Shown here piece by piece: positions 3,356 to 24,757 of a DNA stretch of 64,000 nt. The notes beneath the pieces are model-generated. The model saw only the letters and a list, made by a program, of their open reading frames with translations, did not search any database and was not told the DNA's origin. The translations under genes and the position numbers were made by a program. This DNA is from Candidatus Nanopelagicales bacterium (GTDB taxonomy: Bacteria; Actinomycetota; Actinomycetes; S36-B12), in the NCBI GenBank assembly GCA_017854795.1, contig JAFMHB010000003.1, positions 77,047 to 141,046 of the forward strand, given 5' to 3'. The stretch's first letter is position 1. Each line of letters opens with the position of its first letter.

Positions 3356-4810
3356 TTAGCGTTTGAGTGTGACGCTGAGATCGCCCTGCGTGTAACCCAA
3401 GTATTGGGAGGCTGTATTCGCCACCATTTCGCGCACGAGGGTCACTTCGGGTGAATCCGGGTATGAAAGATCAGTCTTAACCGGACCGGCGGCAAGCATC
3501 GCATCTACATCTGGGCCGGGAATGAGGTAACGCAGAATCAATTCCTCGTCAGAGAGATTTTCACCTAACTGATTGCGAATCTCTTTGAGTGATGGGTCAG
3601 GCCGTTCCCACACCAGGAATTCCTTACCGCGCTTACTGGAGAAAGCTTTATCCATAACCTCAGAACTAACCTCACCCGGGATTGGCCCCATGTGGCCTGC
3701 CAAGTACATGAGGTTTTCATCGGGGAAGACTGTGTATCGCTCTTCGTTGACAAGGTTGAGCAGAGCCTGAATACCCACAAGTTGAGAATACGGCGTTGCC
3801 ATGATGGGAAATCCCATCTCCTCACGTACGACACTAATCTCTTCTAGGAGTTCGCCGTAGCGATCTCCCATTCCGTATTGGTGCAACTGGTTAATTAAAG
3901 TGCCTGTCATTCCGCCGGGCAACTGGTGCGCGGAATGCGCAAGGTTGTATTCCCGAGGAGCTCCGAGTGTGTAGCCCTCAGCCTCGGCAACTCGGGTTAG
4001 GTGTTCTGAGATTCGTGGGATCAGGGACTCGTCAAGGTTGGTCTCAAAGCCCAGTCGACGCATATTGTCCGCAGTGATGTCAACCGACGGCATCGAAGGA
4101 CCGTTAGCCATCGGGCCCATTGCTGTATGCAAGATATGAATCCCCGCTTTGGCAGCTGTGAGGTAGTTCAGGGTGCTGATCCCGGTCGTGTTGTGGAAAT
4201 GTGCTTCCAGCGGGACCCCGTTAGCGGCCTCAACCATGCGCGGTATCCAGGTTGCTGCACGCTCGGGTGAAAGCACGCCGGCTTCGTCACCCAAGATAAT
4301 CGTTTCAGTACCCCAAGTAGACATTTCGCGAACAATGTTTGCGTAGAAGTCGTCTGTGTGTACCGGCGAATCAGCGAACATAACTTGCGGAGCGGACTGT
4401 GCGCCTGCATCCTGAACGATGCCACTCATCCACTTCATTTCATCAAGGTTGAATAAGCAGTCGAAGATCCACATGCTGCCGATACCGTGCTTCACCAAAG
4501 TTCGAACCCACAGTTCCAAGATCGACCTCGGTGTCAAGCCCATTCCGACAATGGCATTGGCTCGGGATCCAGCTCTCAGTCGACTCTTCGGCATGGCTGC
4601 TCGAATTAGGTCAAGACCCTCCCACGGATTTTCGCGGCAATAACGAACAAGGACTTCCATCAGACTGGAGCCGGTTAAGTCGACAATGTGATAACCCATG
4701 CTGTCTATGTCAGCGGCAATGGGAAGGCTATGACCCGCACGCATCCGCATACCCCACAGACTTTGTTGGCCATCGCGGAGGGTTTGGTCGATGAACTTGA
4801 TTTCGGTCAC
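3356..4810 (-). CDS. PycB/OadA-like (HMGL-like TIM barrel) carboxyltransferase subunit, CT1
   Basis: FIDQTLRDGQQSLWGMRMRAG, AHFHNTTGIS, HQLPGGMTGTLINQL, TPYSQLVGIQALLN. GTG start at 4810 overlaps the stop of the biotin carboxylase gene. Confidence 0.8.
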   Translation of the reverse strand: MTEIKFIDQTLRDGQQSLWGMRMRAGHSLPIAADIDSMGYHIVDLTGSSLMEVLVRYCRENPWEGLDLIRAAMPKSRLRAGSRANAIVGMGLTPRSILELWVRTLVKHGIGSMWIFDCLFNLDEMKWMSGIVQDAGAQSAPQVMFADSPVHTDDFYANIVREMSTWGTETIILGDEAGVLSPERAATWIPRMVEAANGVPLEAHFHNTTGISTLNYLTAAKAGIHILHTAMGPMANGPSMPSVDITADNMRRLGFETNLDESLIPRISEHLTRVAEAEGYTLGAPREYNLAHSAHQLPGGMTGTLINQLHQYGMGDRYGELLEEISVVREEMGFPIMATPYSQLVGIQALLNLVNEERYTVFPDENLMYLAGHMGPIPGEVSSEVMDKAFSSKRGKEFLVWERPDPSLKEIRNQLGENLSDEELILRYLIPGPDVDAMLAAGPVKTDLSYPDSPEVTLVREMVANTASQYLGYTQGDLSVTLKR

Positions 4811-6204
4811 GATGGCATCTTCTCCTTGGATTCGTTGTCTTGGTTCTCGTTTGTCCAGCGGGGTAGGAAGTCCTGTTCGACCCACCGCGTGTGGTGTCGC
4901 TGTTGCGCGAAGTCTTGGTCTGCGACAACACTGATCAGAAACTCTCGATTTGTTGTCACTCCATCGACTTTCAGGTGCTTGAGTGCCCGGCCCATTCGCG
5001 TTACCGCGTCACCGCGATCCGAGCCGTGCGTGAGCACCTTCGCGATCATCGAGTCGTAGTAGGGTGGAATCAGATATCCGCCGTAGACGTGGCTATCAAC
5101 GCGGACCCCTCCTCCTTGAGGTGGAATCCACTTTGTCACACGACCGGGCGCAGGCATGAAGTTATTTCGGGGGTCCTCAGCATTGACCCGGCACTCAATT
5201 GCATGGCCCGTGAGGTGGACCTCCGCTTGAGTAATCGACAGTGGCTCTCCCGCGGCAATACGCAACTGCTCGCGAACAATGTCAACTCCGGTAACGAGTT
5301 CGGTGACGGGGTGCTCAACCTGCACCCGCGTGTTCACTTCAAGAAAGGCGAACTCTCCCGTGATTGCGTCGACGACAAACTCAACAGTTGCAGCGCCTAC
5401 GTAGTCCAGCGCCCGGCAGAGTTCAACAGCAGAAACATGCAGTGCCTCTCGCACCTCCAGTGGTATCGAAATAGCAGGAGCTTCTTCCACGACCTTTTGA
5501 TATCGGCGCTGGGCCGAGCAGTCACGCTCACCCAAGTGAATTACATGACCATGCATGTCGGCCAAGATTTGAACCTCTACGTGCCGCGCTTGTGTAATGA
5601 ACTTCTCAACATAAACGCGACCGTCACCAAAGGCTTGCAGGGCTTCGTTGCTGGCTGATGCATACTTTTCATCAAGGTCGGAAAGCTCGTTGACAAGCAC
5701 CATGCCACGACCACCACCGCCGGCCGCCGCCTTCAAGAGAACGGGTAACCCAATTGCCTCTACTTGGGTGCGCGCTGCCTCGAGACTTTCAAGTGCTGCG
5801 CTACCGGCACCGGTATTGATACCCACTGACTCGGCCACAGCGCGTGCCTGAATTTTGTCCCCTCCTCGGCGAATTGTTTCACCTGAGGGTCCGATAAAAA
5901 TAATTCCGTTTTCAACGCATGCATCAGCAAGTTCAGGGCGTTCCGCGAGGAAACCATACCCGGGGTGGAGCGCATCACAGCCGGTTGCAAGTGCTGCTTG
6001 CATTACCCGATTTATATCTAAATAACTTTCCGTCGAGGCCCCTGGGCCAATGCACACCACGTAGTCGGCCAAGTAGGCAGCCATACTCTCCCGATCAGCC
6101 TCGGACACGATTGCGACAGACTCCACACCTTCATCCGCGCATGCGCGAATGATGCGGACCGCAATCTCGCCGCGGTTTGCAACTAGGACTCTTCGAAGGG
6201 CCAT
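4807..6204 (-). CDS. Biotin carboxylase subunit
   Basis: LVANRGEIAVRIIRACADEG, AAAGGGGRGM, HVEVQILADMHGHVIHLGERDCSAQRRYQKVVEEAPA, EVNTRVQVEHPVTE. Confidence 0.95.
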   Translation of the reverse strand: MALRRVLVANRGEIAVRIIRACADEGVESVAIVSEADRESMAAYLADYVVCIGPGASTESYLDINRVMQAALATGCDALHPGYGFLAERPELADACVENGIIFIGPSGETIRRGGDKIQARAVAESVGINTGAGSAALESLEAARTQVEAIGLPVLLKAAAGGGGRGMVLVNELSDLDEKYASASNEALQAFGDGRVYVEKFITQARHVEVQILADMHGHVIHLGERDCSAQRRYQKVVEEAPAISIPLEVREALHVSAVELCRALDYVGAATVEFVVDAITGEFAFLEVNTRVQVEHPVTELVTGVDIVREQLRIAAGEPLSITQAEVHLTGHAIECRVNAEDPRNNFMPAPGRVTKWIPPQGGGVRVDSHVYGGYLIPPYYDSMIAKVLTHGSDRGDAVTRMGRALKHLKVDGVTTNREFLISVVADQDFAQQRHHTRWVEQDFLPRWTNENQDNESKEKMPS

Positions 6205-6212
6205 CGATGCCG

Positions 6213-6749
6213 CTACTCGTGTGGGCGAATAACGACGAGGAGTTGTCCAAACTCGACCATCTGACCGTTATCCGGTTCAACAGCTACGACTGTGCCAGAT
6301 ACACCAGCCTTGACGTGGTTCATCAGTTTCATGACTTCGACGATCCCGACGGTATCTTCTGCGTCTACCTCTTGGCCGATGGTCACGAACTCGGGGGCCC
6401 CCGGCTGAGGTGAGCGCCAAAAAAGTCCCAGGGAAGGTGCCTTGACGCTATGGCCGTCTACCGAATTGCTGGCGACCGCGGGCTGACCAGCGCTCGAATG
6501 TGTCTCAACGTCAGACGCGGGGGTGGCAGCAGGGCTGTCCTGCGGAGCGGGAGTTGCAACGGGGGGAGGAGCTATCGTCTGGGAAACGGCAAGCCCTGAA
6601 TTGCGGTCCGCAGAAACCTCGGGGGGGCGCCCTGTTCTGGTCAGTTCAAGGGTTGTATCTCCAATTCGAACGGACATTTCACCCCAGTCGGATGCATCAA
6701 AAGTAGCAACGAGCGCTTTGATATCTTCCGGGGTGAGGGCCATGGCCAT
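6213..6749 (-). CDS. Biotin carboxyl carrier protein
   Basis: C-terminal biotinyl domain with VEVMKLMNHVKAGVSGTVVAV. The ORF N-terminal extension upstream of MAMALTPEDIK is probably untranslated. Confidence 0.85.
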   Translation of the reverse strand: MAMALTPEDIKALVATFDASDWGEMSVRIGDTTLELTRTGRPPEVSADRNSGLAVSQTIAPPPVATPAPQDSPAATPASDVETHSSAGQPAVASNSVDGHSVKAPSLGLFWRSPQPGAPEFVTIGQEVDAEDTVGIVEVMKLMNHVKAGVSGTVVAVEPDNGQMVEFGQLLVVIRPHE

Positions 6750-6897
6750 CCTTTCGACTTGGGTATCCACAGGATTCCCATAACTAACACAGAGGTCCGA
6801 TGTTTGATGCATACTAGTGCCAGGGAGGAACCAAGACAATGAGAACTCTAAAAATAGTCCGTTCGGCTTTCGCGGTCGCAAACCAGAATGAACGCGG

Positions 6898-7674
6898 ATG
6901 AGCGTCACCGACAGCACAATAGTTAAAATTCGCGATCTGATCGTGAGTGGTCAAATCAAGCCAGGTGATCGTCTGCCCCCAGAGCAAGAACTCGCCCTCT
7001 CCATGGGAATCTCACGAAGTTCGCTTCGTGAAGCCGTCAAAGCACTGAGTCAGGCAAAAGTACTCGACGTACGACGAGGAGATGGCACCTATGTGACCAG
7101 CCTCGAGCCCCAATTGCTGTTGTCCGGATTGTCCTTCGTCATTGATCTGATGGAAGACCGGACTCTCGCTGACATTTTTGAGGTCCGCAAACTCCTAGAA
7201 CCATCGTCGACCGCCCTTGCTGCGCAGCGAATCACCGATGTGCAACTGGAGGAACTTCGAGCCAGCATGGTCTCAATGCGTGAGGCCCACGACCCAGAAG
7301 AACTCGTTATCCGCGATATGGACTTCCACGCCCAGATTGCAGAGGCGACTGGTAACGCCAGCCTCTGCTCAATCCTTGATGCAATCTCTTCCCGTGCTGT
7401 ACGTGCTCGCGTGTGGCGCGCCTCGATGGTCGGCATGAAAACGATGACGTTGTCAGCACACCAACTCATTCTTGAAGCCCTTACCGACCGTGACCCTTCG
7501 CTGGCGCACGCGGCCGCAACCGTCCATGTCTCGGAATCAGAACGTTGGTTAAATGAGCACCTCTCAGTGCAAAAGCCTCACGGAAAAGTACCTTCGCGCA
7601 GCAATACGCAAATTCACGGTGAGACCCACATGCAAATGACTCAGACCCCCGTTGAACAAGGAGCTGTAACGTGA
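6898..7674 (+). CDS. GntR-family (FadR/FCD-type) transcriptional regulator
   Basis: GQIKPGDRLPPEQELALSMGISRSSLREAVKALSQAKVLDVRRGDGTYV wHTH plus a C-terminal FCD-like domain. 4-nt overlap with the next gene. Confidence 0.92.
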   Translation: MSVTDSTIVKIRDLIVSGQIKPGDRLPPEQELALSMGISRSSLREAVKALSQAKVLDVRRGDGTYVTSLEPQLLLSGLSFVIDLMEDRTLADIFEVRKLLEPSSTALAAQRITDVQLEELRASMVSMREAHDPEELVIRDMDFHAQIAEATGNASLCSILDAISSRAVRARVWRASMVGMKTMTLSAHQLILEALTDRDPSLAHAAATVHVSESERWLNEHLSVQKPHGKVPSRSNTQIHGETHMQMTQTPVEQGAVT

Positions 7675-8909
7675 GTGATCCGATTGTCCTTTCTGGTGTG
7701 GGTATCACCCCATTCGGTCGGCAGCCCGAAGAAACAGTGGCATCATTGGCTGCTGCCGCTACGGCTGCAGCAATCCTTGACTCAGGGATTGCGCCAGCTG
7801 ATATCGGGGTTGTTGTATTTGCAAACTCAACTCAGGGGGCAATGGACGGGCAACATGGGATCCGCGGGCAGTTGGCCCTGTCCGGGATCGACCTCGGTGT
7901 TGTCCCGATTATCAATGTGGAAAACGCCTGCTGTAGCGCCACAACCGCACTTCAAGTTGCAACGGCCTACGTTCGCGCCGGAATGGCACGACATGCTTTG
8001 GTCGTCGGGTCCGAAGTGATGACCCAAGCAAAACCTGAAGCAATCCTGGCCGCCTTCGAGGGGAGTTGGGATGTCGCTCATCGCGATGAGAGCATTGCTC
8101 GGCTAACTGACTGGGGCAGCGGAACACCTGCACCCGCGGATGCCATCGAATTAGCCAGTCGCACAGTCTTCATGGACATATATGCCGCTTTTGCGCGTGA
8201 TCATATGACCCGATTTGGGAGCACTGCCGAACAGTTTGCCGCCGTGAGCGCGAAGAATCACATGCACTCGGTTCACAACCCCAACGCTCAGTTCCAGAAG
8301 CCCTTCACGGTGGAGGAGATTCTGGCCAGCAAACAAGTTGTGTGGCCACTCACCGTTCCGATGTGCTCACCCATCAGTGATGGAGCAGCCGCAGCCGTGG
8401 TGTCACATCTCGCCGATGCAGCATCTCCTGACCGGGCCATTGTCATTCGCGGCATTGCCCTCGGACATGGAGGCGCTTGGGATGGTAAAGATCCCCAAGA
8501 TCACGTCAGTCATCGCACGGCACTACGTGCTTATCAAGAAGCAGGCCTCACACCCGCGGACGTCGACGTCGCAGAAGTACATGACGCCACAGCGGTGGGT
8601 GAAGTTCAACAGATCGAACATATGGGACTTGTTCCCTATGGTGATGGCGGCGCGGCAGCACAGCGCGGCGATACAGCAATTGGAGGATCGATTCCTGTTA
8701 ATCCTTCGGGAGGATTGGAATCACGCGGACACCCAATTGGCGCGACCGGACTAGCACAAATTCATGAACTCGTCACTCAACTTCGGGGTGATGCGGGGGC
8801 GCGACAGGTTGACGGTGCGCGGATTGCGCTTGCTGAAAATAGTGGCGGACTTGTCGGGGTAGAGGAGGCCGCCGTGGCGGTGACGCTGCTCGAGGCGCGG
8901 GGCAAATGA
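7671..8909 (+). CDS. SCP2-type thiolase / thiolase-like protein
   Basis: NVENACCSATTALQVA, NPSGGLESRGHPIGATGLAQIHEL; short SCP2-thiolase-like organisation. Confidence 0.85.
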   Translation: MSDPIVLSGVGITPFGRQPEETVASLAAAATAAAILDSGIAPADIGVVVFANSTQGAMDGQHGIRGQLALSGIDLGVVPIINVENACCSATTALQVATAYVRAGMARHALVVGSEVMTQAKPEAILAAFEGSWDVAHRDESIARLTDWGSGTPAPADAIELASRTVFMDIYAAFARDHMTRFGSTAEQFAAVSAKNHMHSVHNPNAQFQKPFTVEEILASKQVVWPLTVPMCSPISDGAAAAVVSHLADAASPDRAIVIRGIALGHGGAWDGKDPQDHVSHRTALRAYQEAGLTPADVDVAEVHDATAVGEVQQIEHMGLVPYGDGGAAAQRGDTAIGGSIPVNPSGGLESRGHPIGATGLAQIHELVTQLRGDAGARQVDGARIALAENSGGLVGVEEAAVAVTLLEARGK

Positions 8910-10435
8910 ACCTGGCGGAACTCCTGATTGCATCTGCTCGACGTGTCCCATTTTCAGTAGCACTAGTGTCGGGAAACCAACCCATCGCAACGTTTCGCAG
9001 TCTTGCTCAGCGGGTGGCTGGCCGAGCCCACACCTTGACCAAACAACATGGCATCGGTCCTGGGCATCGGGTTGCAATTTATGCCGAGAACAGCCCTGAT
9101 TACCTCGAGTACCTTCTCGCAATCTGGTGGACCGGTGCAACAGCTATCCCGATGAGCGCAATGCTGCACCCTCGTGAAGTAGTTGCATTACTCCTTGACT
9201 CACGGTCATCCCTCTGTCTTGTGTCAACGATTAAAGCCAACGAGTTAGCGTCAGAGTTGGTCCCGTGCCTTGTGCTTGAATGCAGGGAAGTGAGAGTCGC
9301 GGACCACACCGACCCGCCGCGGGTAATGGAATCCTTTGATCCAGCTTGGATTTTCTACACGAGTGGGACCACCGGAACCCCCAAGGGTGCTGTCCTCACG
9401 CACGGCAACCTCATGGCAATGACTTTGGCTTATCTCAGTGATGTCGAACCCCTCGACGAACGTTCGGGGCTACTACATCTCGCTCTCATGAGCCATGCGG
9501 GTGGACTTTTTTCACTTCCTTTTATCGCTCGAGGGGGACGCCAGGTTGTACCTGAGTCGTGCACTGCCGATCCCGCCGAAACGTGGTCACTGCTCGCAGA
9601 CCAGTCAGCCTTAAGTCTGTTCGCACCCCCGGTTCTTTTGCGGCGACTTGTTAATGCACCAGAGGCAGACCCAAGCGCGGCCGAGCACATGGGCACTGTC
9701 CTTGTTGGTGCAGCGCCGGTGCTGGTCAACGACCTTGTAACGGGGGTCGAAGTGTTCGGTCCACGAATTTGGAATGGCTATGGTCAAGGTGAAACCCCGT
9801 GCACGATCACGGCCCTGGACGCACGCAGTATCGGCAGCGCCGTTGCCACTTCAGACCTTGATCTGCTGCGCAGTGTCGGCTATCCACGAATCGGAACCGA
9901 GGTGCGCGTTGTTGACAACGACGCCCGTACCTGTCCCGATGGGGAGCCCGGTGAAATCACGGTTCATGGACCCACCGTCATGTCGGGCTACTGGGACCGG
10001 CCAACCGCTACCGCAGAGGCGATCCGTGATGGCTGGCTGCATACCGGCGATATCGGGGTGTTTCACAACGGAGCCCTCACCTTGCTCGACCGCAGTAAAG
10101 ATCTCGTCATTACCGGTGGAGCCAATGTTTACCCCCGAGAAGTAGAAGATGTCCTCCTCTCGCATGACACCGTGACCGACGTCGCCGTGATAGGGATGCC
10201 CGATGACGAATGGGGTGAGCGTGTGGTGGCTTTCATTGTCCCCTCAATCGCCGGCAACATTTCAAAGACAGAACTTGACGCCTACTGCATTGCGAACATA
10301 GCCCGCTACAAACGCCCAAAGGAGTATCACCAAGTCTCGACCCTTCCACGTAATGGGGCAGGGAAAGTCCTCAAAAACGAACTACGTGCAACCCTCACCG
10401 ACTCAATTACCAGCCAAATTAAGGAGCAACCATGA
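8906..10435 (+). CDS. AMP-forming acyl-CoA synthetase/ligase
   Basis: IFYTSGTTGTPKGAVLTH, GWLHTGDIGVFHNGALTLLDRSKDLVITGGANVYPREVEDVLL, GAGKVLKNEL. ATGA overlaps on both sides. Confidence 0.9.
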   Translation: MNLAELLIASARRVPFSVALVSGNQPIATFRSLAQRVAGRAHTLTKQHGIGPGHRVAIYAENSPDYLEYLLAIWWTGATAIPMSAMLHPREVVALLLDSRSSLCLVSTIKANELASELVPCLVLECREVRVADHTDPPRVMESFDPAWIFYTSGTTGTPKGAVLTHGNLMAMTLAYLSDVEPLDERSGLLHLALMSHAGGLFSLPFIARGGRQVVPESCTADPAETWSLLADQSALSLFAPPVLLRRLVNAPEADPSAAEHMGTVLVGAAPVLVNDLVTGVEVFGPRIWNGYGQGETPCTITALDARSIGSAVATSDLDLLRSVGYPRIGTEVRVVDNDARTCPDGEPGEITVHGPTVMSGYWDRPTATAEAIRDGWLHTGDIGVFHNGALTLLDRSKDLVITGGANVYPREVEDVLLSHDTVTDVAVIGMPDDEWGERVVAFIVPSIAGNISKTELDAYCIANIARYKRPKEYHQVSTLPRNGAGKVLKNELRATLTDSITSQIKEQP

Positions 10436-11892
10436 CCCACATTGATTTTCTTGACAGCACACTTCGTGACGGACAGCAAAGTTTGTGGGGCATGCGCATG
10501 CAAGCCGCTATGGCATTACCGGTGGCACCCATTTTGGATCGCGCCGGCTTCAAAGTAATTGACGCCGCCGCGAGTTCCTTCTTTGAAGTCCTCATCAAAT
10601 ACAAGCGTGAGAATCCATGGCAGGGACTGGATCTGTTGATGGGAGCTATCCGCCGTACGCCTGTGCGCGGTGGGATGCGCTCGAATGCGTGCATCAGCTT
10701 CGGGACAACTCCCGATGCGCTGATGGACATCTGGATGCGGCAACTCAACGAGCACGGTGTCCGAAGCTACTGGATTTACGACGGGTTATTCAATATCGAC
10801 AAGATGGCACGCCTTGCGCGAATTGCAAAGCAATACAATTCAGAAGTAGCTGGCACGGTCATTTTCGCCATGTCTCCTGTTCACACCGACGAGTACTACG
10901 CGGACAAAGTGCGCAAACTCGCAGCCATTCCCGAGGTTGACACGATTCTTCTTTATGACACCGCGGGTGTGCTTCATACCGACCGGTTACGAACACTTGT
11001 TCCGGCATTTGTGGAAAACGCCGGTGGCAAGCCGATCGAGATGCACTCCAATAACCTGATGGGTATCTCTGGAATGGCCTACTGTGAGGCTGTTCGCCTT
11101 GGCGTAAAAGTGCTGCACACGACAGTGCGCTCAATGGCGAACGGGCCATCAACTCCCAGTACCGAAAGCATGATTCGCAATATTGAACTTATGGGGTACA
11201 CGCATTCGGTTAATGGTGCCCTGCTGGGAGCGGTCTCGGACCACTTCGAAAGGGTGGGAAAACAAGAAGGACACCTGGTAAATCAATTTGCCGAGTACGA
11301 CCTTTTTAGTCTTCAACATCAGATTCCTGGCGGCATGACCGGCACGTTGAAAGCCCAACTCGAGCAGTACGGGATGACAGACCGCTTGGGAGAGGTGCTC
11401 GAAGAAACCGCTCGTGTTCGTCGCGAGTTGGGTTACCCAATGATGGTGACGCCATTTAGTCAGTTGGTCGGCATCCAAGCCGTACTCAACGTTGTTACCG
11501 GAAACCGCTACTCCGTTGTTCCCGACGAGGTCGTCCAGTACGCCGCGGGTTACTACGGGGAGACTCCGGCTCCCATTGAGCCAGACATTCTTGATCGCAT
11601 TATGGCCGCTCCTCGAGCCGCGGAAATCTTTGCTAATCCGCCCGAGCAACCCACAGAGGATGAACTGCGCAAGAAGTTTGGGACTACAGACGACGACGAG
11701 TTGGTCCTGAAGGCATTGGTACCGCAGTTTGACCTTGACGCAATGTATGCCGCCGGCCCGACCAAACGTGACTATCCACTCGCAAGCTCCGAGGTGCTGC
11801 AGGTTCGGCAACTGGTCTCCGCCATCAACGCGCCCTACGCCCGCGTTGCAACGGAGTCAATGGACATCGTGCTCCGCAGGTCGGGTGCATAA
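10432..11892 (+). CDS. Second PycB/OadA-like carboxyltransferase paralogue, CT2
   Basis: FLDSTLRDGQQSLWGMRMQAA, HQIPGGMTGTLKAQLEQYGMTDRLGEVLEE, TPFSQLVGIQAVLNVVTGNRYSVV. Clear homologue of CT1 across its length. Confidence 0.8.
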   Translation: MTHIDFLDSTLRDGQQSLWGMRMQAAMALPVAPILDRAGFKVIDAAASSFFEVLIKYKRENPWQGLDLLMGAIRRTPVRGGMRSNACISFGTTPDALMDIWMRQLNEHGVRSYWIYDGLFNIDKMARLARIAKQYNSEVAGTVIFAMSPVHTDEYYADKVRKLAAIPEVDTILLYDTAGVLHTDRLRTLVPAFVENAGGKPIEMHSNNLMGISGMAYCEAVRLGVKVLHTTVRSMANGPSTPSTESMIRNIELMGYTHSVNGALLGAVSDHFERVGKQEGHLVNQFAEYDLFSLQHQIPGGMTGTLKAQLEQYGMTDRLGEVLEETARVRRELGYPMMVTPFSQLVGIQAVLNVVTGNRYSVVPDEVVQYAAGYYGETPAPIEPDILDRIMAAPRAAEIFANPPEQPTEDELRKKFGTTDDDELVLKALVPQFDLDAMYAAGPTKRDYPLASSEVLQVRQLVSAINAPYARVATESMDIVLRRSGA

Positions 11893-13753: not shown

Positions 13754-14452
13754 ATGAGCCAGCCAAAGATTATCGACGACAAGTGGGGCAAGGAAGCCAT
13801 GATGCCCACCGTCGAGTTCTATCACACTGCTATTCGGCGCTTAGTAGCCGAGAAATTCGCAGCTTCGGGCAAAACTTGGGAGGAAGCGGTTGTCGATCCC
13901 AGCCTTGAACTGACACGCTCCGACTTTGAAAACATCGAGCAGCAGTTGCTAGCGACCGGCTATCTGTTTGAAACTTCTGCTCAGATCTCGTTCATTGAAG
14001 AACCAGGGAAGTACAAGCCCGTCCAAGGAGTCGGTGATTCCGGTACACAAGGCAAAGATGACCAGGGACGACTTATCGTTGGAACCGGCGACAACGTCTT
14101 CACAGCCCCAGATTTAGAGGGCACTGCCCGCTTTGTTGGTACGGTAGACGTAGTCATGGACATGCTGATCAATGGTGTTCCTGAAGGAACCATCGCGATC
14201 ATTGATGACTCAGGTGGCACCTTGACCGCACCCATCCTCGAAGGTTTCGCAGGCGTGGTCTGTATGGGTGGGACGATCCGTTCGCATCTCGGCATCCTCA
14301 CCCGTGAATATGGCATCCCTTGCCTCATGGCATCTGAACTTGATGGACTTGTTGAGGGGGATCGCATTTTTGTCGAGTACTCCAAAGATGCCGCCAATGC
14401 ATACGCCGAGCGTGATGACGCTGCCCGTGCCTTAATCGTGAAGATCTCCTGA
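13754..14452 (+). CDS. Free-standing PEP-utilizer-type phosphohistidine (swivel) domain protein
   Basis: GTIAIIDDSGGTLTAPILEGFAGVVCMGGTIRSHLGILTREYGIPCLMASELDGLVEGDRIFVEYS resembles the PPDK/PEP-synthase mobile domain with the catalytic His in 'RSHLGIL'. AAGGAGG RBS upstream. Confidence 0.78.
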   Translation: MSQPKIIDDKWGKEAMMPTVEFYHTAIRRLVAEKFAASGKTWEEAVVDPSLELTRSDFENIEQQLLATGYLFETSAQISFIEEPGKYKPVQGVGDSGTQGKDDQGRLIVGTGDNVFTAPDLEGTARFVGTVDVVMDMLINGVPEGTIAIIDDSGGTLTAPILEGFAGVVCMGGTIRSHLGILTREYGIPCLMASELDGLVEGDRIFVEYSKDAANAYAERDDAARALIVKIS

Positions 14453-14469: not shown

Positions 14470-16044
14470 ATGACTTCGAACTACACATACGCAGAACTAT
14501 TGGCGGACAATGCTTGGATCCGCAAATCCAGTGACATCTTTTACTGGCAGTGCACAACCCGAACCGTTCAGGAGTCCAAGCTCTTCCCGGTGAACCCGTA
14601 TATCGCTCTGTCGTACTACAACTGCTGGTATCGATACCCTGAACTGCTGCGCAAGATCGACGCGGCAATGCCGGCGGAAGAGATTGGTGACCGTGCTCGA
14701 GAAGTATCCACGGGCGTTAACACGATCATGCTGGGAATCATCCAGCAATTCTACTTGGGCGGCCGCCAGTTCCTCATGGATATGGGCATGATCAATGCAA
14801 CCGACGGCATCGACGACATGAAGTTCGTTCTCGATTTCACACGGCGTGCCAACCTTGGATATCACCGACAGAATTCATACGTTCTCAATAGCGATGACAA
14901 TAACAAGGGTCAGATACACCCGGAACGCACTCTTCAAGTTTTTGAAGCCGACGCGCTCGGATGCAAGCCCGGGGACAAACTACATAACGCTGTAGTGCGT
15001 TTCTTGGCGACGGCATCCCAGTACGCATTCCTTAAAAACTGTGAGTGCCGACTCGGCATTAACAATAGTGGTCCATACAAGGTGGGCAACAATGAAATGC
15101 TCGTTCGAGATTTCATTGACTTGGCTGAGGGCGACTACCCCTGGCTAGATGGAGTTACAGCCGACATTGAGTACAACAACCTGACCATGCCGGTCATTAT
15201 GAAAGATACTCATTTCAACATTGTCGACGACTGGGGTTCTTTCGAAGCTACCCCTTCATATGACCACGACAATATGATCGCCGTCGGTCTCTACACATCT
15301 GATTACCTCTCCAACGGTTACCTTCCAGTGCACATGAATAACGCAAGTGACCTAGCGGACTATCTTGATCACAGTCGCGAAACCATGGCGACGGCAACAT
15401 CAGAATTGTGGAAGCGAATTTCAGGCTGGACGCGTGATCAAATGGTTGATGCTGGTGCGTTGGTCTACTACTCGGTCGCTAAGGACCTTGCTCACTTTGC
15501 AGGCGTCTACGAGCAGAACGACTGGATGCAACTTGAAGAGCGCACTCAACGACTCAAGCCGATCATGAACGATGAATACGGTAATCACGCTATCGCTGAG
15601 TTGGTCGGTTACATCTCTCTCAGCAGCCAGCAGAACAACCCGTACAACATGAACAAGTGGTCGGATCAACCCAATGACATGTGGTCGGCTATCCCGTATT
15701 CGGTCCTTGAAGGTAACGAGTGGACCGCTTCGGTGGGTCCAATTCGCGCAGGAAGTACTTCACTTCCACCAAAGACCCAGAAGTACACGACGACTCAAGG
15801 CAAGTTGACTCAGGACGAGTGCAACGCAGCGGCTCGCAAGTTCGTCTCGGGTCCCGTTGCTGCTGGGTCCAAGATCTACGACGATTCGTGGATCAAGTAC
15901 AACTACGCATCTCCTGAAGCAAATAACCTTTACAAGGCAACGCAAGAAAACTCGCGTTTGCTCAAGGGCAAGGGAGCAGGCCTTTCTCGGGCTGACATTG
16001 ACGCTATCCGTATAGCAGCTGGAGAGCAGCCACTCGGAGGCTGA
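14470..16044 (+). CDS. Conserved-looking 524-aa protein of unknown function, directly downstream of the swivel protein
   Basis: Long ORF with codon structure and spacing (17 nt) consistent with an operon. No family recognised by eye; no PEP/pyruvate TIM-barrel signature seen. Confidence 0.8.
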   Translation: MTSNYTYAELLADNAWIRKSSDIFYWQCTTRTVQESKLFPVNPYIALSYYNCWYRYPELLRKIDAAMPAEEIGDRAREVSTGVNTIMLGIIQQFYLGGRQFLMDMGMINATDGIDDMKFVLDFTRRANLGYHRQNSYVLNSDDNNKGQIHPERTLQVFEADALGCKPGDKLHNAVVRFLATASQYAFLKNCECRLGINNSGPYKVGNNEMLVRDFIDLAEGDYPWLDGVTADIEYNNLTMPVIMKDTHFNIVDDWGSFEATPSYDHDNMIAVGLYTSDYLSNGYLPVHMNNASDLADYLDHSRETMATATSELWKRISGWTRDQMVDAGALVYYSVAKDLAHFAGVYEQNDWMQLEERTQRLKPIMNDEYGNHAIAELVGYISLSSQQNNPYNMNKWSDQPNDMWSAIPYSVLEGNEWTASVGPIRAGSTSLPPKTQKYTTTQGKLTQDECNAAARKFVSGPVAAGSKIYDDSWIKYNYASPEANNLYKATQENSRLLKGKGAGLSRADIDAIRIAAGEQPLGG

Positions 16045-16060
16045 GCTTCAACCATTGCGT

Positions 16061-16092
16061 TGGGGGTGAGTCAGATTCTTGACTCACCCCCA
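16061..16092. terminator. Perfect 13-bp hairpin (TGGGGGTGAGTCA-6-TGACTCACCCCCA)
   Basis: Lies 17 nt after the stop of the 524-aa gene. No strong U-tract follows, so it could be an attenuator or a processing/stability element. Confidence 0.65.
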
Positions 16093-16129
16093 AACTATTT
16101 GTGCATGTTGATCCGAAAGGGGTATCCAG

Positions 16130-16882
16130 ATGGGAAATCTTGATGGACGAATCGCAATTGTCACGGGGGCTGGTGCAGGAATCGGCGCTGCTTGTGCACG
16201 TGAATTAGCAAGGCGAGGAGCGATCGTCGTGGTCAGCGACATCAACGCATCGGCAGCTCAGCGGGTCGCCGCCGAGATAACGAGCACCGGCGGCAACGCT
16301 ACTTCCTCTATGACAGATGTCCGCGAACCTGAAGCGCTCGTAGCACTTGTCAAGCAAACGGTTAGCGAGCGCGGGCGGCTAGACATTGCAGTCAACAACG
16401 CCGGCATCAGCGCTGAACAGCTCCCCATTGCGGATCTGACCCCAGAACTGTGGCGCAAGACATTGGACATCAATATTGATGGGGTCTTTTTTAGCATGCG
16501 CGCAGAAATTCCAGCAATGATCGTCGGCGGTGGCGGTTCAATCATTAACATGGGCTCGATCTTGAGCAGTATTGCGTGGCCCAATGCTGCTGCCTACACC
16601 ACATCCAAGCATGCAGTCTTGGGCATGACCAGAAGTGCCGCCTTGGACTACGCGTCAGTTGGTATCCGAGTCAACGCTGTCGGCCCAGGCTTTGTGAGCA
16701 CGGACCTTGTTCGCAATGCCTTGTCGCCAGAGGTGTTCAACGAGCTCGCATCCATGCACCCGATCGGACGCATGGGTTCCCCTGATGATGTCGCCAAGTT
16801 AGTAGCTTTTCTTGCCAGTGATGACTCAGCAAACATCACCGGTGGCTACCAAGTAACCGACGGCGGCTTCTCTATCCGCTAA
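16130..16882 (+). CDS. SDR-family oxidoreductase
   Basis: VTGAGAGIGAACARELARRGA, NNAGIS, YTTSKHAVLGMTRSAALDYASVGIRVNAVGPG. Confidence 0.92.
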   Translation: MGNLDGRIAIVTGAGAGIGAACARELARRGAIVVVSDINASAAQRVAAEITSTGGNATSSMTDVREPEALVALVKQTVSERGRLDIAVNNAGISAEQLPIADLTPELWRKTLDINIDGVFFSMRAEIPAMIVGGGGSIINMGSILSSIAWPNAAAYTTSKHAVLGMTRSAALDYASVGIRVNAVGPGFVSTDLVRNALSPEVFNELASMHPIGRMGSPDDVAKLVAFLASDDSANITGGYQVTDGGFSIR

Positions 16883-18059
16883 TACTTCTAACCATCATCG
16901 GTACGGGACGGAATACCACCAATGCAACACCTAGGAGGGCTAAAGCGGGAACAATGAGGAACGCCCATTGCAATCCAAATCCATCTGCCATTGCACCGAG
17001 CGCGAATGGAGCAATCATGACCGCGATGCCCGCGGCCATCGTGCCGGTGCCGGATGCTCGGTCTGCAAATTGTGGTGCACTGCGAATGGAGCGGCCTATC
17101 GCTAAGGGCCAGTGTAAGCCAACTCCACAACCGGTAATCACTAAGAATAGCAACATAATTCCGACATTTGGGATTGACCAGACTACCAAGAATGCCAAGC
17201 CACTGAGTGTGAAAGCTCCTATCAAAAGTCGCTCTGGATTCACCCGCTCTGCAATGCGACTGCCAACCACCCTGCCAAGCAGTAAACCAATGACGATACC
17301 GACCAAGGCGGCTTGCTCGGCACCGCCATCCAATCCACCGCGCTCTTTCAGGTAATCCGTACTCCACAGTGCTAGGCAATATTCAATACCTGCCGCTGGA
17401 AGCATCGTGAGTGCAGTCCACCAAAACAATTTCGGGAGATCACGCACTTTGCTTGGCAATTCACGTGTATCTCCCCGACCGTCGTACTCGCGCACACTTC
17501 TGCCTCGAAAAATTTCAACAAGGAGAAAGCACAAGGCGACGGTCCACAGTGCTGGGCGCCAGCCCCATCCAATTGCAATTCCTACTCCCGCGACGACGGG
17601 CCCAATAAAACTCGCTACCGCAGCTAATGCGCTCGCCTCAGATAATGCTGCGGGTGCGGCTAAGCCCTGCTGTGCGCTAACAAACGCGCTCACGCCCGAT
17701 ACGGCAAGTGCGCCTCCACATGCCGCGATGAACGTACCAACTAATGTGACTGCAAATGGTAATCCACAAGTTATCATCAAAATGCCGGCTATAACAACGC
17801 ATGACCCGAGCCTCATGCTGCCACCACGACCCAGTTTTCCAGCCACTCGAGCATTGAGCCCGGACATCACCACTAAACCTAGAGCTATGGCAGTTCCATA
17901 GAGGCCTGCAACGGTCAAGGAGATGCCCTGCTCAGCAGTTAATGAAGCACGTGTCGCACCAAATGCGTATACCCAAGCCCCGTAGGCTCCCATCAAAAAG
18001 TAGGTCACCCAAGTTGTTTTCACTCGGGTAGGGCGCAATTCAACTTGTGAATTCTGCAT
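16872..18059 (-). CDS. MFS transporter
   Basis: About 12 hydrophobic segments; MGAYGAWVYAFGATRASLTAEQG and GTGTMAAGIAVMIAPFALGAMAD. 11-nt tail-to-tail overlap with the SDR. Confidence 0.82.
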   Translation of the reverse strand: MQNSQVELRPTRVKTTWVTYFLMGAYGAWVYAFGATRASLTAEQGISLTVAGLYGTAIALGLVVMSGLNARVAGKLGRGGSMRLGSCVVIAGILMITCGLPFAVTLVGTFIAACGGALAVSGVSAFVSAQQGLAAPAALSEASALAAVASFIGPVVAGVGIAIGWGWRPALWTVALCFLLVEIFRGRSVREYDGRGDTRELPSKVRDLPKLFWWTALTMLPAAGIEYCLALWSTDYLKERGGLDGGAEQAALVGIVIGLLLGRVVGSRIAERVNPERLLIGAFTLSGLAFLVVWSIPNVGIMLLFLVITGCGVGLHWPLAIGRSIRSAPQFADRASGTGTMAAGIAVMIAPFALGAMADGFGLQWAFLIVPALALLGVALVVFRPVPMMVRSISG

Positions 18060-18137: not shown

Positions 18138-19895
18138 TTATTTCTCCCGTGCAACTCTGACCGCGAGAACTTGAAGAGGGAGAACCGGCCGTGCAACAAC
18201 TCGCGAGATGCCAGCATCAAGGGCGGCCTTCATCCCCGCTGGGGTCGACAACAGGGAACCGCGCACGCACTGAGCACCGACCAAGATCGAAGCTAAACCG
18301 GCAAAATCAATAGTGTTACCTTCAATACCCACACCAAACCCGGCTGCATCAAGATCCAATACCCCACCAGGATCTGATTCCACTACGTCGATCGGTGCGT
18401 AATCTTGCGCCCATTTTGCGAATTGGGTCAGCCAAAGGTCGTCAGAGATGCCGGTCTCAATCATGGGCATCTCGCCGAGGTAGACGCGTCCACCTTCACC
18501 GTCAACAGTGAGTAACTTGCCAGCCAAACTTTGCGCCACTCCCTCACCTACGCCGACCACGCTCGGTCTACCCAATGCCCGGGTAACAACGGCCGCATGC
18601 GAGGTTGATCCACCAAGTTCGGTGACAACCGCGACGGCTGCGATCATGCCGTGTACATCGTTCGGGCTTGTATTGGGGCGAACCAAAACTATTGACTCGC
18701 CTTCGGCTGTACGTCGCTCTGCTTCATCCGGATCAATTACACCGATCCCACAGGCGACACCAGGACAGGCGGGCTCACCACTTGCGGTCAGATGTTTTTC
18801 ACTGTGCACCGGATCAAGTTTCGGAAGCAAGACGGTTCGAACTTGCTCAGGTGTAACTCTCGCTACCGCTTCTTCTGCCGTTATCGCACCTTCGCTAGCT
18901 AGATCCACTGCGATTCGGATTGCTGCTTGCGGGGATCGCTTTGCCGATCGGGTTTGAAGTAGGTACAGGCGCCCCTCTTGCACCGTGAACTCGATATCTT
19001 GAACTTCACCATGCTCGCGTTCAAGAATATTGGCCCAAACAAGTAGCTCTTCATGAACATCAGGCATGGCACTTTCCAGCGTCACCATGTCTTGGACTGC
19101 GTGCGTTCCACCCACTACGTCATCACCTTGACCGCCGGGCAACCACTCGCCATAAGGTTTTGGATCACCCGAAAGTGGGTTGCGAGTGAACAGGACGCCG
19201 GTGCCCGATCGATCGCCGAGGTTTCCGAACACCATTGCCTGTACCGTTACGGCGGTGCCGCCAACCTCGTTCATATTCCAGTGTCGGCGATAAGCTTTCG
19301 CCCTTGGCGAGTCCCATGAGTTAAAGACCGCGCAGATTGCGCCACTCAGCTGCTGAAAAGGGTCTCGTGGTATTTCCTCATCTGTATCCGTTAGTACTTC
19401 TGCACGTATTTCCTCAGCACTCATGCCACCGCTATAAGTTTCAAGATCTGCTTTGAGGACAACATCTCCATACTGGTGACAAAAGCGCGCGTGCGTATCA
19501 AGTGCGTACTCGGCATTTCCTGTGAGATTGGCCAAGCCAACTTCAACCCCATCAGTGACTCCGAGGTTCAATACAGTGTCCATCATCCCTGGCATGCTGA
19601 TTGCCGCGCCCGATCGGACAGAGACCAGCAGTGGAGCTTCCGGGTCGCCGAATCGCCTGCCGGTCATAGTTTCGAGGTAGGCGATGCCCTCAAGGACACC
19701 GGTCCAAACTTCATCCTCTAAAACCGCACCACCCTCGTGGTATTTGCTGCACTCACTGACCGGTAAAACGAAAGCCGGAGGAACCCGAAGTCCCAAACTC
19801 AACATGCGACCGATACTCCAGGCCTTGCCACCAATGAGTTCCCGTGGTGGAAGTTGGGTTCCTTCCAGACAAATCACGCGCGATTCGGACATCAC
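18138..19895 (-). CDS. Pyruvate-phosphate-dikinase-like protein with ATP-grasp and swivel domains, lacking the PEP/pyruvate-binding barrel
   Basis: GGKAWSIGRMLSLGLRVPPAFVL, LVSVRSGAAISMPGMMDTVLNLG, GTGVLFTRNPLSGDPKPYGEW, DIEFTVQEGRLYLLQTRSAKR, GGSTSHAAVVTRALGRPSVVGVG. Only ~110 non-barrel residues follow the swivel domain. Confidence 0.9.
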   Translation of the reverse strand: MMSESRVICLEGTQLPPRELIGGKAWSIGRMLSLGLRVPPAFVLPVSECSKYHEGGAVLEDEVWTGVLEGIAYLETMTGRRFGDPEAPLLVSVRSGAAISMPGMMDTVLNLGVTDGVEVGLANLTGNAEYALDTHARFCHQYGDVVLKADLETYSGGMSAEEIRAEVLTDTDEEIPRDPFQQLSGAICAVFNSWDSPRAKAYRRHWNMNEVGGTAVTVQAMVFGNLGDRSGTGVLFTRNPLSGDPKPYGEWLPGGQGDDVVGGTHAVQDMVTLESAMPDVHEELLVWANILEREHGEVQDIEFTVQEGRLYLLQTRSAKRSPQAAIRIAVDLASEGAITAEEAVARVTPEQVRTVLLPKLDPVHSEKHLTASGEPACPGVACGIGVIDPDEAERRTAEGESIVLVRPNTSPNDVHGMIAAVAVVTELGGSTSHAAVVTRALGRPSVVGVGEGVAQSLAGKLLTVDGEGGRVYLGEMPMIETGISDDLWLTQFAKWAQDYAPIDVVESDPGGVLDLDAAGFGVGIEGNTIDFAGLASILVGAQCVRGSLLSTPAGMKAALDAGISRVVARPVLPLQVLAVRVAREK

Positions 19896-20500
19896 TACTC
19901 CTGACGTGTACGGCCGAGCATGCGGAGAAGATCCTCATGCAACTCGAACCAAACGGTGTGGTAACTATCGATACGGACGCCACTAACCCAATCAATTTCC
20001 CCTGCAAGCACTCGGTCGTAGGCTGATTCAAGTCGTTCGAGATACCTCGTCAATCGAGGCTGGGCCTCTGCGCAGCGACCGACTACTCGCTCGGCTCGCT
20101 CGTGAAGGTCGCCAAGTCGGTCGATAATCCCATTGTCATAATCCTTATCTTCATGATCATTGGGGATCCGAGTTGAACCCGTCGGCACGGTCTGCCAATC
20201 GGTAAACAGGGCCAGCAGTCCGGTGTTCACTTTTTCAAACCGTTCATAAGCAGCGGTTAAGGCGCCGTCCTCACGGGCCGCCGCGAAGACAATCGGGTAT
20301 TGGGCTGCAAGCATGGTTTGGCCATCAGGGGCAACCATGTACGTTCCTCGAGCACCAGCGACTAAACCTTTACCTGCAGCGGCCTCTAGCGCGGCGGTCA
20401 CTTCTTCTTCATTGAGCCCCAGCAGATCCGCAACAGCCGCCGGCCCCGCCGCCTTGCGAACTGCCAATCCGTGAACTGCTAAAAATTCGATGTCGGTCAT
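19895..20500 (-). CDS. wHTH-like N-terminus plus helical C-terminus, translationally coupled to the PPDK-like gene
   Basis: MTDIEFLAVHGLAVRKAAGPAAVADLLGLNEEEVTAALEAAAGKGLV looks like a helix-turn-helix. Stop overlaps the PPDK-like GTG start (TAGTG). Confidence 0.7.
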   Translation of the reverse strand: MTDIEFLAVHGLAVRKAAGPAAVADLLGLNEEEVTAALEAAAGKGLVAGARGTYMVAPDGQTMLAAQYPIVFAAAREDGALTAAYERFEKVNTGLLALFTDWQTVPTGSTRIPNDHEDKDYDNGIIDRLGDLHERAERVVGRCAEAQPRLTRYLERLESAYDRVLAGEIDWVSGVRIDSYHTVWFELHEDLLRMLGRTRQE

Positions 20501-22701: not shown

Positions 22702-23445
22702 TCAGTCTGAAATAAGAACTTGCCGTAAAACTTCAAGGGTGTCTTTGGAAACCCCGATGGATTGCAGATATTTATCTCCCGACCCATACTCGCTATAGAG
22801 TCCATCGAGGAAACCGCTCATGGTCTCCGGGGCAGAGTCTTGAACCCCCGTCGGTTGTTTATCTAGGTACTTGCCGTAACTCTTGAGGCGCAGTAACCGA
22901 GCGTGCACGAGCGGATAAGTTTCACGGGATCGCACATAATCAGCAACAATGGCTTCACGCTGAACATTGATTGCATCCAGGATCACCGCAACTACAACGC
23001 CAGTTCGATCCTTGCCAGCCGCGCAATGAACGACTGCGGGAAGACCCTCGCTCGCGAGCACTTCAGCGATAGTTCCGAAGGAATCGCTACTCACTGTGAG
23101 AAACCCTAAATAGTGCGGCACCAACATTTCTGGGGTGATCAACGGGACGGCTGTTCCAGGAACACTGGGATCCACACTGATCAGAGGTACGTTCACATGC
23201 CGGACTTCGCTGTGATTTTCCAGAGAGCCGCGACCCTCACGGACGACCTCCCCCTCAAGCCGGAGGTCGATCACGGTTCGAAGACCGACTTCATTCGCCA
23301 ACCGATGGGCATCGGAATTATCAATTTCCTGCAAGGTGTCACTGCGAAAGATGCGGCCTGCTCTCACCCGACTACCTCGTGTTGTTGGCAGCCCGCCAAG
23401 ATCGCGCCAGTTGTATGCCTGTTGGGGTGTCCATGACGTATCCAT
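22702..23445 (-). CDS. Tyrosine/dual-specificity-like protein phosphatase
   Basis: HCAAGKDRTGVVVAVILDA (CX5R signature), NWRDLGGLPTTRGSRVRAGRIFRSDTL. Start refined to ATG at 23445. Confidence 0.88.
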   Translation of the reverse strand: MDTSWTPQQAYNWRDLGGLPTTRGSRVRAGRIFRSDTLQEIDNSDAHRLANEVGLRTVIDLRLEGEVVREGRGSLENHSEVRHVNVPLISVDPSVPGTAVPLITPEMLVPHYLGFLTVSSDSFGTIAEVLASEGLPAVVHCAAGKDRTGVVVAVILDAINVQREAIVADYVRSRETYPLVHARLLRLKSYGKYLDKQPTGVQDSAPETMSGFLDGLYSEYGSGDKYLQSIGVSKDTLEVLRQVLISD

Positions 23446-23457
23446 CTTCTCCAGTAT

Positions 23458-23468
23458 ACATCTGATGT
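23458..23468. promoter_or_regulatory. 11-bp palindrome ACATCTGATGT (copy 2) in a divergent intergenic region
   Basis: 5+1+5 palindrome between the phosphatase (-) and thiolase (+) genes. Identical to 13561-13571. Confidence 0.5.
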
Positions 23469-23602
23469 TTCTATGCGTTGGATTCCACAACCGACTAGAC
23501 TCAAACAAGATTAACCCTAAAATTTGCCCCGAAGGTCCTACGGCTGAAAACTTCTGTCTGTGGCTTTCGCAGGCCCTTTCCACATCATGAGGAGAAAACA
23601 TT

Positions 23603-24757
23603 ATGCGTGACGCAGTCATCGTCGGAGCTGTTCGCAGTCCCATTGGAGTTGGCAAGCCCGAGAAGGGGTCACTGAGTGGCATCAACCCGGTTGACCTCTC
23701 TGCAATGGTGCTTGAAGGACTGATGGCACGCACGGGAGTGGACCCCGCTTTGGTCGACGACGTCATTTGGGGATGTGTCTCCCAAGTTGGCGAACAATCA
23801 TTTAACATCGGTCGAAACGCGGCGCTTGCTGCCGGTTTCCCCGAGTCAGTACCGGGCGTGACCGTGGATCGCCAGTGTGGATCGAGTCAGCAGGCAGCAC
23901 ACTTCGCAGCTGCAGGAGTTATTGCCGGCCAGTACGACATGGTGATCGCCGGTGGCGTTGAGTCAATGTCCCGAGTCCCCATGTTTTCAAACACGGTGGG
24001 TGGCGACGGTCCTTTCGGGCCGCGCATGTTGGATCGCTACGAAAACAATCTCGTCCCACAGGGAATCAGCGCCGAGATGATCGCCACTAAGTGGGGTCTT
24101 TCGCGAACTGACCTTGACGAACTCGCGGTGGCTTCCCATGCGCGCGCAACAGCAGCCACTGAATCTGGAATCTTTGGTGAAGAGATCATCCCAATAACCA
24201 CCGCGGCCGGAATTGTTTCAACTGACCAAGGAATCCGTCCCGGTACTAGCTTGGAGGGACTCGCCGCGCTAAAGACCCCGTTCCAAGAAGGTGGAGTTGT
24301 CACTGCAGGTAACGCCTCCCAAATATCCGACGGTGCAGCAGCCCTACTCATCACAACATCTGAGCGAGCTGCCGAATTGGGACTCACACCACTAGCCCGA
24401 TTCCACACCTTCGCACTTGCCGGAGTAGATCCGGTAATTATGCTGACGGGTCCCATTCCGGCAACCCAAAAAGTTCTACAACGTAGCGGCCTGTCCATCT
24501 CAGACATTGGTGCCTTCGAAGTTAACGAGGCTTTTGCTTCCGTGCTGGGAGCCTGGCTAAAAGAGACGGGGGCTTCACACGAGTTGACCAACATCAATGG
24601 AGGCGCCATGGCACTTGGTCACCCACTCGGTGCTTCCGGGGCGCGGGTAATGACCACGCTCGTGCACCAGATGCGCCGAAGCGGAGCTCGTTATGGACTG
24701 CAATCAATCTGTGAGGGTGGCGGCATGGCGAATGCCACAATCCTCGAGCTTCTGTAG
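23603..24757 (+). CDS. Thiolase / acetyl-CoA C-acetyltransferase
   Basis: DAVIVGAVRSPIGVGK, VDRQCGSSQQAAHFAA, NINGGAMALGHPLGASGARVM, ICEGGGMANATILE. Confidence 0.93.
   Translation: MRDAVIVGAVRSPIGVGKPEKGSLSGINPVDLSAMVLEGLMARTGVDPALVDDVIWGCVSQVGEQSFNIGRNAALAAGFPESVPGVTVDRQCGSSQQAAHFAAAGVIAGQYDMVIAGGVESMSRVPMFSNTVGGDGPFGPRMLDRYENNLVPQGISAEMIATKWGLSRTDLDELAVASHARATAATESGIFGEEIIPITTAAGIVSTDQGIRPGTSLEGLAALKTPFQEGGVVTAGNASQISDGAAALLITTSERAAELGLTPLARFHTFALAGVDPVIMLTGPIPATQKVLQRSGLSISDIGAFEVNEAFASVLGAWLKETGASHELTNINGGAMALGHPLGASGARVMTTLVHQMRRSGARYGLQSICEGGGMANATILELL

Follow-up and report, generated by a model that had tools for sequence, protein, structure and literature searches.

A putative acceptor-binding subunit of a multi-part, histidine swivel-dependent small-molecule kinase from an undescribed bacterial protein family

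The window studied here, a stretch of 64,000 nucleotides from a Candidatus Nanopelagicales bacterium, encodes on its forward strand (positions 14470-16044) a protein of 524 residues that probably binds the acceptor in a small-molecule kinase made of several subunits and driven by ATP, operating like HpeHI, CreHI, PpsAB, and rifampin phosphotransferase (RPH). Sequence searches place the protein in a bacterial family that has not been described, of which it is the founding member here and for which a role in acceptor binding and phosphotransfer is proposed. Since members of this family are always accompanied by, or fused to, a phosphate-carrying histidine domain, they are most likely the part of the kinase that holds the substrate.

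The reading frame, of 524 codons, starts with an ATG codon downstream of a Shine-Dalgarno-like AAAGGGG. When the surrounding 8 kb were shuffled 200 times, no open frame longer than 257 codons arose. When the gene was compared with that of a 98%-identical relative, 113 synonymous and only 9 non-synonymous codon differences were counted, which indicates that the protein is under strong constraint (purifying selection). The upstream gene, coding for a histidine swivel protein, stops at position 14452, leaving the gap of 17 nt that had been reported in the first-pass annotation. A terminator-like hairpin, formed by a perfect inverted repeat of 14 bp (16060-16093, forward strand), begins 15 nt past the 524-codon frame and suggests that the two genes make up one transcription unit. 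The composition of the protein is likewise as first described, rich in Asn (7.3%, compared with a mean of 2.7% and a standard deviation of 1.1 for the other genes of the cluster) and in Phe, Trp, and Tyr (together 11.1%, compared with 6.3% and a standard deviation of 2.0).

On its own, the 524-residue protein gave no match in Pfam or NCBIfam and nothing significant among PDB sequences, and a profile of 16 family members also found no match in Pfam, NCBIfam, or PDB. These searches agree with the initial view that the protein has no PEP-utilizer barrel and belongs to no known family; a barrel was discarded as no barrel family was matched. A phage or defence origin was also rejected, PHROGs and PADLOC searches having returned no match, and a scan of viral contigs gave no relative. 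The label "orphan", on the other hand, proved wrong, as homologues are present in at least 24 non-redundant loci. The closest ones (72-98% identical) come from the same family of Actinomycetota (Candidatus Nanopelagicales and Actinomycetota MAG records), followed by one Actinomycetes MAG (64%) and by plasmids of Rhodococcus pyridinivorans P23, R. oxybenzonivorans S2-17, and Novosphingobium resinovorum SA1 (46-52%), while remote homologues (24-29%) are found in R. opacus B4 and, among Burkholderiales, in Paraburkholderia and Methylibium petroleiphilum PM1. Of 397 genomes that evenly sample the phylum, 6 carry the family. The record holding the 98%-identical protein (CAMAVT010000007.1) is titled Bifidobacterium breve, yet in view of this identity the title looks mislabelled.

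At least 90% of the 24 members compared retain S36, P40, Y44, P57, G98, R99, G106, F187, R194, G201, P202, Y203, R213, W225, P262, and Y333, and R31 is also invariant in the alignment of 16 members. The conserved Asp, His, and Asn residues that had been expected are thus not a feature of the wide family, where Arg, Gly, and aromatic residues are kept instead, although many of them are retained in close relatives. It is plausible, from the alignment, that the invariant arginines contact phosphate. AlphaFold2, run with an alignment of only 7 sequences, modelled the protein with a mean pLDDT of 34.8.

The constant partner of the family is the swivel. In the window, this subunit (13754-14452, forward strand) has 232 residues with a 105-residue N-terminal extension, and its PEP-utilizers mobile domain (PF00391, E 3.7e-06) spans residues 143-207 and contains the motif GGTIRSHLGI; no PEP-utilizer barrel family was matched. 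All loci examined were searched with profiles of the 524-residue family, the swivel, the 201-residue protein described below, and PPDK. In 24 of 24 non-redundant systems, the family member is accompanied by a swivel on the same strand, either overlapping, fused, or within about 1.1 kb; in Novosphingobium alone, the distance is about 8 kb within the same cluster, and the swivel adjoins the pair of 201-residue protein and PPDK. The catalytic histidine is kept in every one of these 24 swivels, within the motif SH[LIV]xI. Three loci encode the swivel and the 524-type domain, in this order, as a single open reading frame (L015, 7077-8882; L016, 7397-9106; L023, 8167-9987), and in two further cases (R. 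opacus B4, L018 9239-11674; and L021, 5481-8030) the single chain additionally includes the 201-residue type. Together with the gene context, this pairing and these fusions support the earlier proposal that the protein would be the acceptor or catalytic partner of the swivel. The distance matrices of swivels and 524-type proteins correlate with r = 0.95 (24 systems, including three paralogous pairs of one plasmid), which is weak evidence only as shared ancestry of neighbouring genes contributes to this value. In the stretches of L015 and L016 that were read, three swivel/524-type pairs stand beside one pair of 201-residue protein and PPDK, as expected if acceptors specialize and the donor is shared.

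A hypothetical protein of 370-380 residues recurs beside remote 524-type systems (L016, 9133-10278; L018, 13583-14701; L020, 8183-9319), and none was seen in the part of the window that was examined. On the plasmid of M. petroleiphilum PM1, the remote 524-type, swivel, and 201-residue genes (L020, 9890-12779) are located about 3.4 kb from a set of cobalamin-dependent mutase, CoA ligase, and MeaB genes. A tertiary alcohol as substrate, considered because this copy lies near a methylmalonyl-CoA-mutase-type gene, was dropped as no paper on it was found.

The proposed ATP-side donor is a short PPDK of 585 residues (18138-19895, reverse strand; PRK05878, E 1.5e-202), which is composed of an ATP-grasp domain (PPDK_N) and its own swivel with the motif GGSTSHAA. 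Both are shared with PPDK and PEP synthase, whereas the barrel of PPDK, PEP synthase, and PtsI is missing from the short PPDK, the swivel protein, and the 524-residue protein alike; in the short PPDK, no barrel family was matched and the PEP/pyruvate barrel motif is absent. Barrel-less proteins fitting the NCBIfam model "pyruvate, phosphate dikinase" (PRK05878) may not be PPDK enzymes. The short PPDK is adjoined by a protein of 201 residues (19895-20500, reverse strand; "HY") with a winged-helix N-terminal part and a helical C-terminal part. The helical half is rich in Asp and His, and the conserved motifs of the protein are NDHxDxDYD, DSYHTVW, and HEDLL. Its structure was predicted with a pLDDT of 90.8, and MarR-type winged helices superpose on about 75-80 residues of the model, the rest being without a clear match. 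Homologues are annotated elsewhere as MarR regulators or hypothetical proteins, and in one case the 201-residue type is fused to a protein annotated as AMP-binding.

The 201-residue protein and a barrel-less short PPDK with its own GGxxSHAA swivel are adjacent in the window, Rhodococcus, Novosphingobium, and Paraburkholderia, and the same adjacency occurs in Mycobacterium branderi, M. avium, Diaphorobacter, and Streptomyces. Plasmids carry the pair in Mycobacterium, Diaphorobacter, Streptomyces, and Rhodococcus. In Mycobacterium, Diaphorobacter, and one Rhodococcus, an HpeH-type acceptor protein is encoded near the donor pair instead of the 524 type, so that the same donor pair seems to be shared by two families of acceptors and the 524-residue protein takes the position of the HpeH-type acceptor and swivel proteins seen in several loci. 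In the sample of 397 genomes, the 201-residue protein is present in all 6 genomes with the 524-residue family and in 25 of the 391 without it (Fisher P 1.4e-7; 5 of 5 and P 1.8e-6 when the genome of the window is left out). Among relatives, the respective counts are 8 of 10 and 25 of 185 (P 1.1e-5). The 201-residue protein is probably a functional component of the kinase, not a transcription factor. Elsewhere in the genome of the window, which is small and seems rich in swivel kinases, contigs 54 and 8 (L036 and L037) encode four acceptor and swivel proteins of the HpeH/PRK08296 type (588-590 residues), as well as a second homologue of the 201-residue protein directly before a PPDK-like protein that keeps the barrel motif.

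The closest described systems are two-component swivel kinases, in which the acceptor domain is of the HpeH/RPH type (PMC9618137, PMC12167813). HpeHI, the hydroxyphenylethanone dikinase of Rhodococcus rhodochrous GD02, phosphorylates 4-hydroxyacetophenone and acetovanillone, with HpeH providing the acceptor domain and swivel and HpeI the ATP-grasp domain. HpeH also catalyses the exchange of phosphate between phosphorylated product and substrate (PMC12167813). In the pathway, the phosphorylated ketone is carboxylated by HpeCBA and its phosphate is removed by HpeD, after which HpeE and HpeF are proposed to form and then cleave a CoA ester (PMC9618137, PMC12167813). For the exact gene set, only these Hpe/Acv papers were found in the literature. 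Like HpeHI, and also CreHI, PpsAB, and AcvAB, the system in the window would pair a histidine swivel with an acceptor domain that is not a barrel, and its candidate ATP-grasp partner is the separate short PPDK with PPDK_N in the cluster (a genomic association). It would also take the same place as HpeHI, at the head of a phosphorylation, carboxylation, dephosphorylation, and CoA pathway (PMC9618137, PMC12167813). It differs in that the swivel is encoded by a separate upstream gene or is N-terminal in fusions, whereas it is C-terminal in the same chain in the HpeH type, and in that the ATP side consists of a short PPDK with its own swivel plus the extra 201-residue component. RPH likewise phosphorylates a small molecule with ATP-grasp, substrate-binding, and swivel modules, yet these are arranged in one chain in the order ATP-grasp, acceptor, and swivel, and the RIF-binding domain, which serves as its acceptor domain, was not matched by the 524 profile.

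Together with the putative kinase, the surrounding genes represent, by functional class, the complete Hpe-type list of a kinase, a three-part biotin carboxylase, a phosphatase, a CoA ligase, and an acyl-cleaving enzyme. The biotin carboxylase (4807-6204, reverse strand) is 53-56% identical to the copy in the Rhodococcus and Novosphingobium clusters, and is accompanied by a biotin carboxyl carrier protein (6213-6917, reverse strand; PF00364), the start of whose reading frame is uncertain, and by two PYC/OADA-type carboxyltransferases (3356-4885, reverse strand, with PF02436 and PF00682; and 10432-11892, forward strand, 46-66% identical in homologous clusters). The phosphatase (22702-23808, reverse strand) is of the Y_phosphatase3 type (residues 129-366, E 7.9e-53); its true start lies downstream of the start of the open reading frame, and the Rhodococcus cluster copies are 38-40% identical. 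One AMP-forming CoA ligase (1846-3321, reverse strand) shares 53% identity with the Rhodococcus ligase directly after the 524 homologue, and a second copy is located at 8906-10435 on the forward strand. A thiolase-like protein of the Thiolase_C_1 type (7671-8909, forward strand) and thiolases at 618-1826 (reverse strand) and 23603-24757 (forward strand; 52-53% identical to those of L014 and L017) complete the set.

The same functions make up the Hpe/Acv acetovanillone pathway (kinase, biotin-dependent carboxylase, phosphatase, CoA ligase, and thiolytic or hydrolytic cleavage). The differences concern the acceptor family of the kinase, the phosphatase (Y_phosphatase3 in the window, NagD-like HpeD in the Hpe pathway), and the final cleavage, which involves a thiolase in the window and a CouO-like enzyme in the Hpe pathway. 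On Rhodococcus plasmids, the kinase, CoA ligase, biotin carboxylase set, thiolase, and phosphatase genes are collinear, and these functions match those of the Hpe operon, for which biochemical proof exists (PMC9618137). In R. opacus B4, the fused kinase is found with a P450, a ferredoxin, aldehyde and alcohol dehydrogenases, and a phosphatase, a context that resembles the Cre pathway for 4-cresol. By analogy, the 524-residue family would stand where HpeH or CreH does, in both carboxylase and P450 contexts.

In the proposed mechanism, the short PPDK, aided by the 201-residue protein, would take a phosphate from ATP and pass it to the histidine of the 232-residue swivel, either straight from the ATP-grasp domain or through the histidine of its own swivel. 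The charged swivel would then dock on the 524-residue protein, which would hold a small organic substrate to be phosphorylated in this complex. Such a kinase would act first in a degradation pathway. Its phosphorylated product, in all likelihood a hydroxylated ketone, would next be a substrate of the biotin-dependent carboxylase, lose its phosphate through the Y_phosphatase3-type enzyme, and finally be joined to CoA and cleaved by thiolase. As both the swivel of the PPDK and the free swivel have intact motifs, they may form a relay, in which phosphate would move from ATP to the histidine of the barrel-less PPDK, on to the histidine of the free swivel, and finally to the substrate on the 524-residue protein. 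A more elaborate version, combining a new acceptor fold, this two-histidine relay, the 201-residue protein as docking adaptor, and one donor feeding interchangeable acceptors, is put forward tentatively and is rather doubtful as a whole. Several observations speak against the acceptor reading itself, as the short PPDK already has a swivel histidine, so that a second swivel would not seem to be needed, the swivel and 524-residue genes of the window lie on the strand opposite to those of the PPDK and 201-residue protein, and no similarity of the 524-residue protein to the acceptor domain of HpeH and RPH was detected.

This last point bears on whether the protein could be a very diverged HpeH/RPH acceptor fold, and the system thus a split and re-ordered HpeHI kinase, which we regard as possible but somewhat short of probable. 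The shared role, pathway type, and swivel pairing would fit, and HpeH and RPH are only about 20% identical (PMC12167813), so that a fold may be conserved without sequence similarity. Nevertheless, a direct profile-profile comparison with the HpeH type by hhalign returned a probability of 0.1%. In a control, a profile of six HpeH-type proteins (including two from contig 54 and two from contig 8 of the same genome) retrieved RPH from the PDB with E 2.5e-53 in an alignment that includes part of the acceptor domain, whereas the 16-member 524 profile retrieved nothing. In addition, the swivel is N-terminal to the 524 domain in fusions but C-terminal to the acceptor domain in HpeH and RPH. At the level of sequence profiles, homology to HpeH, CreH, and PpsA (PRK08296 type) was therefore not detected, and given the reversed domain order, the 524-residue protein appears to work like these kinases and not to be a member of their acceptor family.

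It is unlikely that the protein instead processes the phosphorylated intermediate, for example by elimination or rearrangement, and does not provide the acceptor site of phosphotransfer. Its neighbours are mostly catabolic enzymes and strict pairing with a swivel would also fit the channelling of a phospho-intermediate, yet its partner is the swivel domain itself, also in fusions, and remains so in different pathways (the P450 type in R. opacus and the carboxylase type in the window), and no other protein of the set stands out as an acceptor site for the swivel. Least of all do we expect the swivel, the 524-residue protein, and the 201-residue protein to act as a phosphorelay with a sensing or regulatory function in the pathway, without making a metabolite. 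The MarR-like winged helix of the 201-residue protein and the annotation of some homologues as MarR regulators would suit such a relay, but this protein is fused to the swivel and 524-type domains in two open reading frames and to the AMP-binding-annotated protein in another, it adjoins the short PPDK in the majority of loci in which the two could be seen, and a large, strictly swivel-paired domain within catabolic clusters would be unusual for a regulator.

Besides inactivating rifampin, swivel-based small-molecule kinases perform the first step in the breakdown of phenol, cresol, and lignin ketones. If the acceptor-subunit reading is true, the 524-residue family would represent another acceptor module, apparently unrelated to the first and served by a modular donor, and would enlarge the set of bacterial routes by which recalcitrant compounds are tagged with phosphate ahead of degradation. 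It would then also give a function to many genes annotated as "hypothetical protein", "PEP-utilizing enzyme", "MarR regulator", or "pyruvate, phosphate dikinase", including genes on Mycobacterium and Rhodococcus plasmids.

As for the catabolic island as a whole, a single biotin carboxylase is accompanied by two carboxyltransferases, two CoA ligases, and several thiolases, so that carboxylation possibly takes place in two steps, either in parallel or one after the other. Immediately upstream of the window (L038), two open reading frames that look acetoacetate-decarboxylase-like by sequence and a second Y_phosphatase3-like one, 37% identical to that of the window, are found at 9842-10651, 16854-17624, and 15085-15834, respectively, and the pathway island extends upstream of the window.
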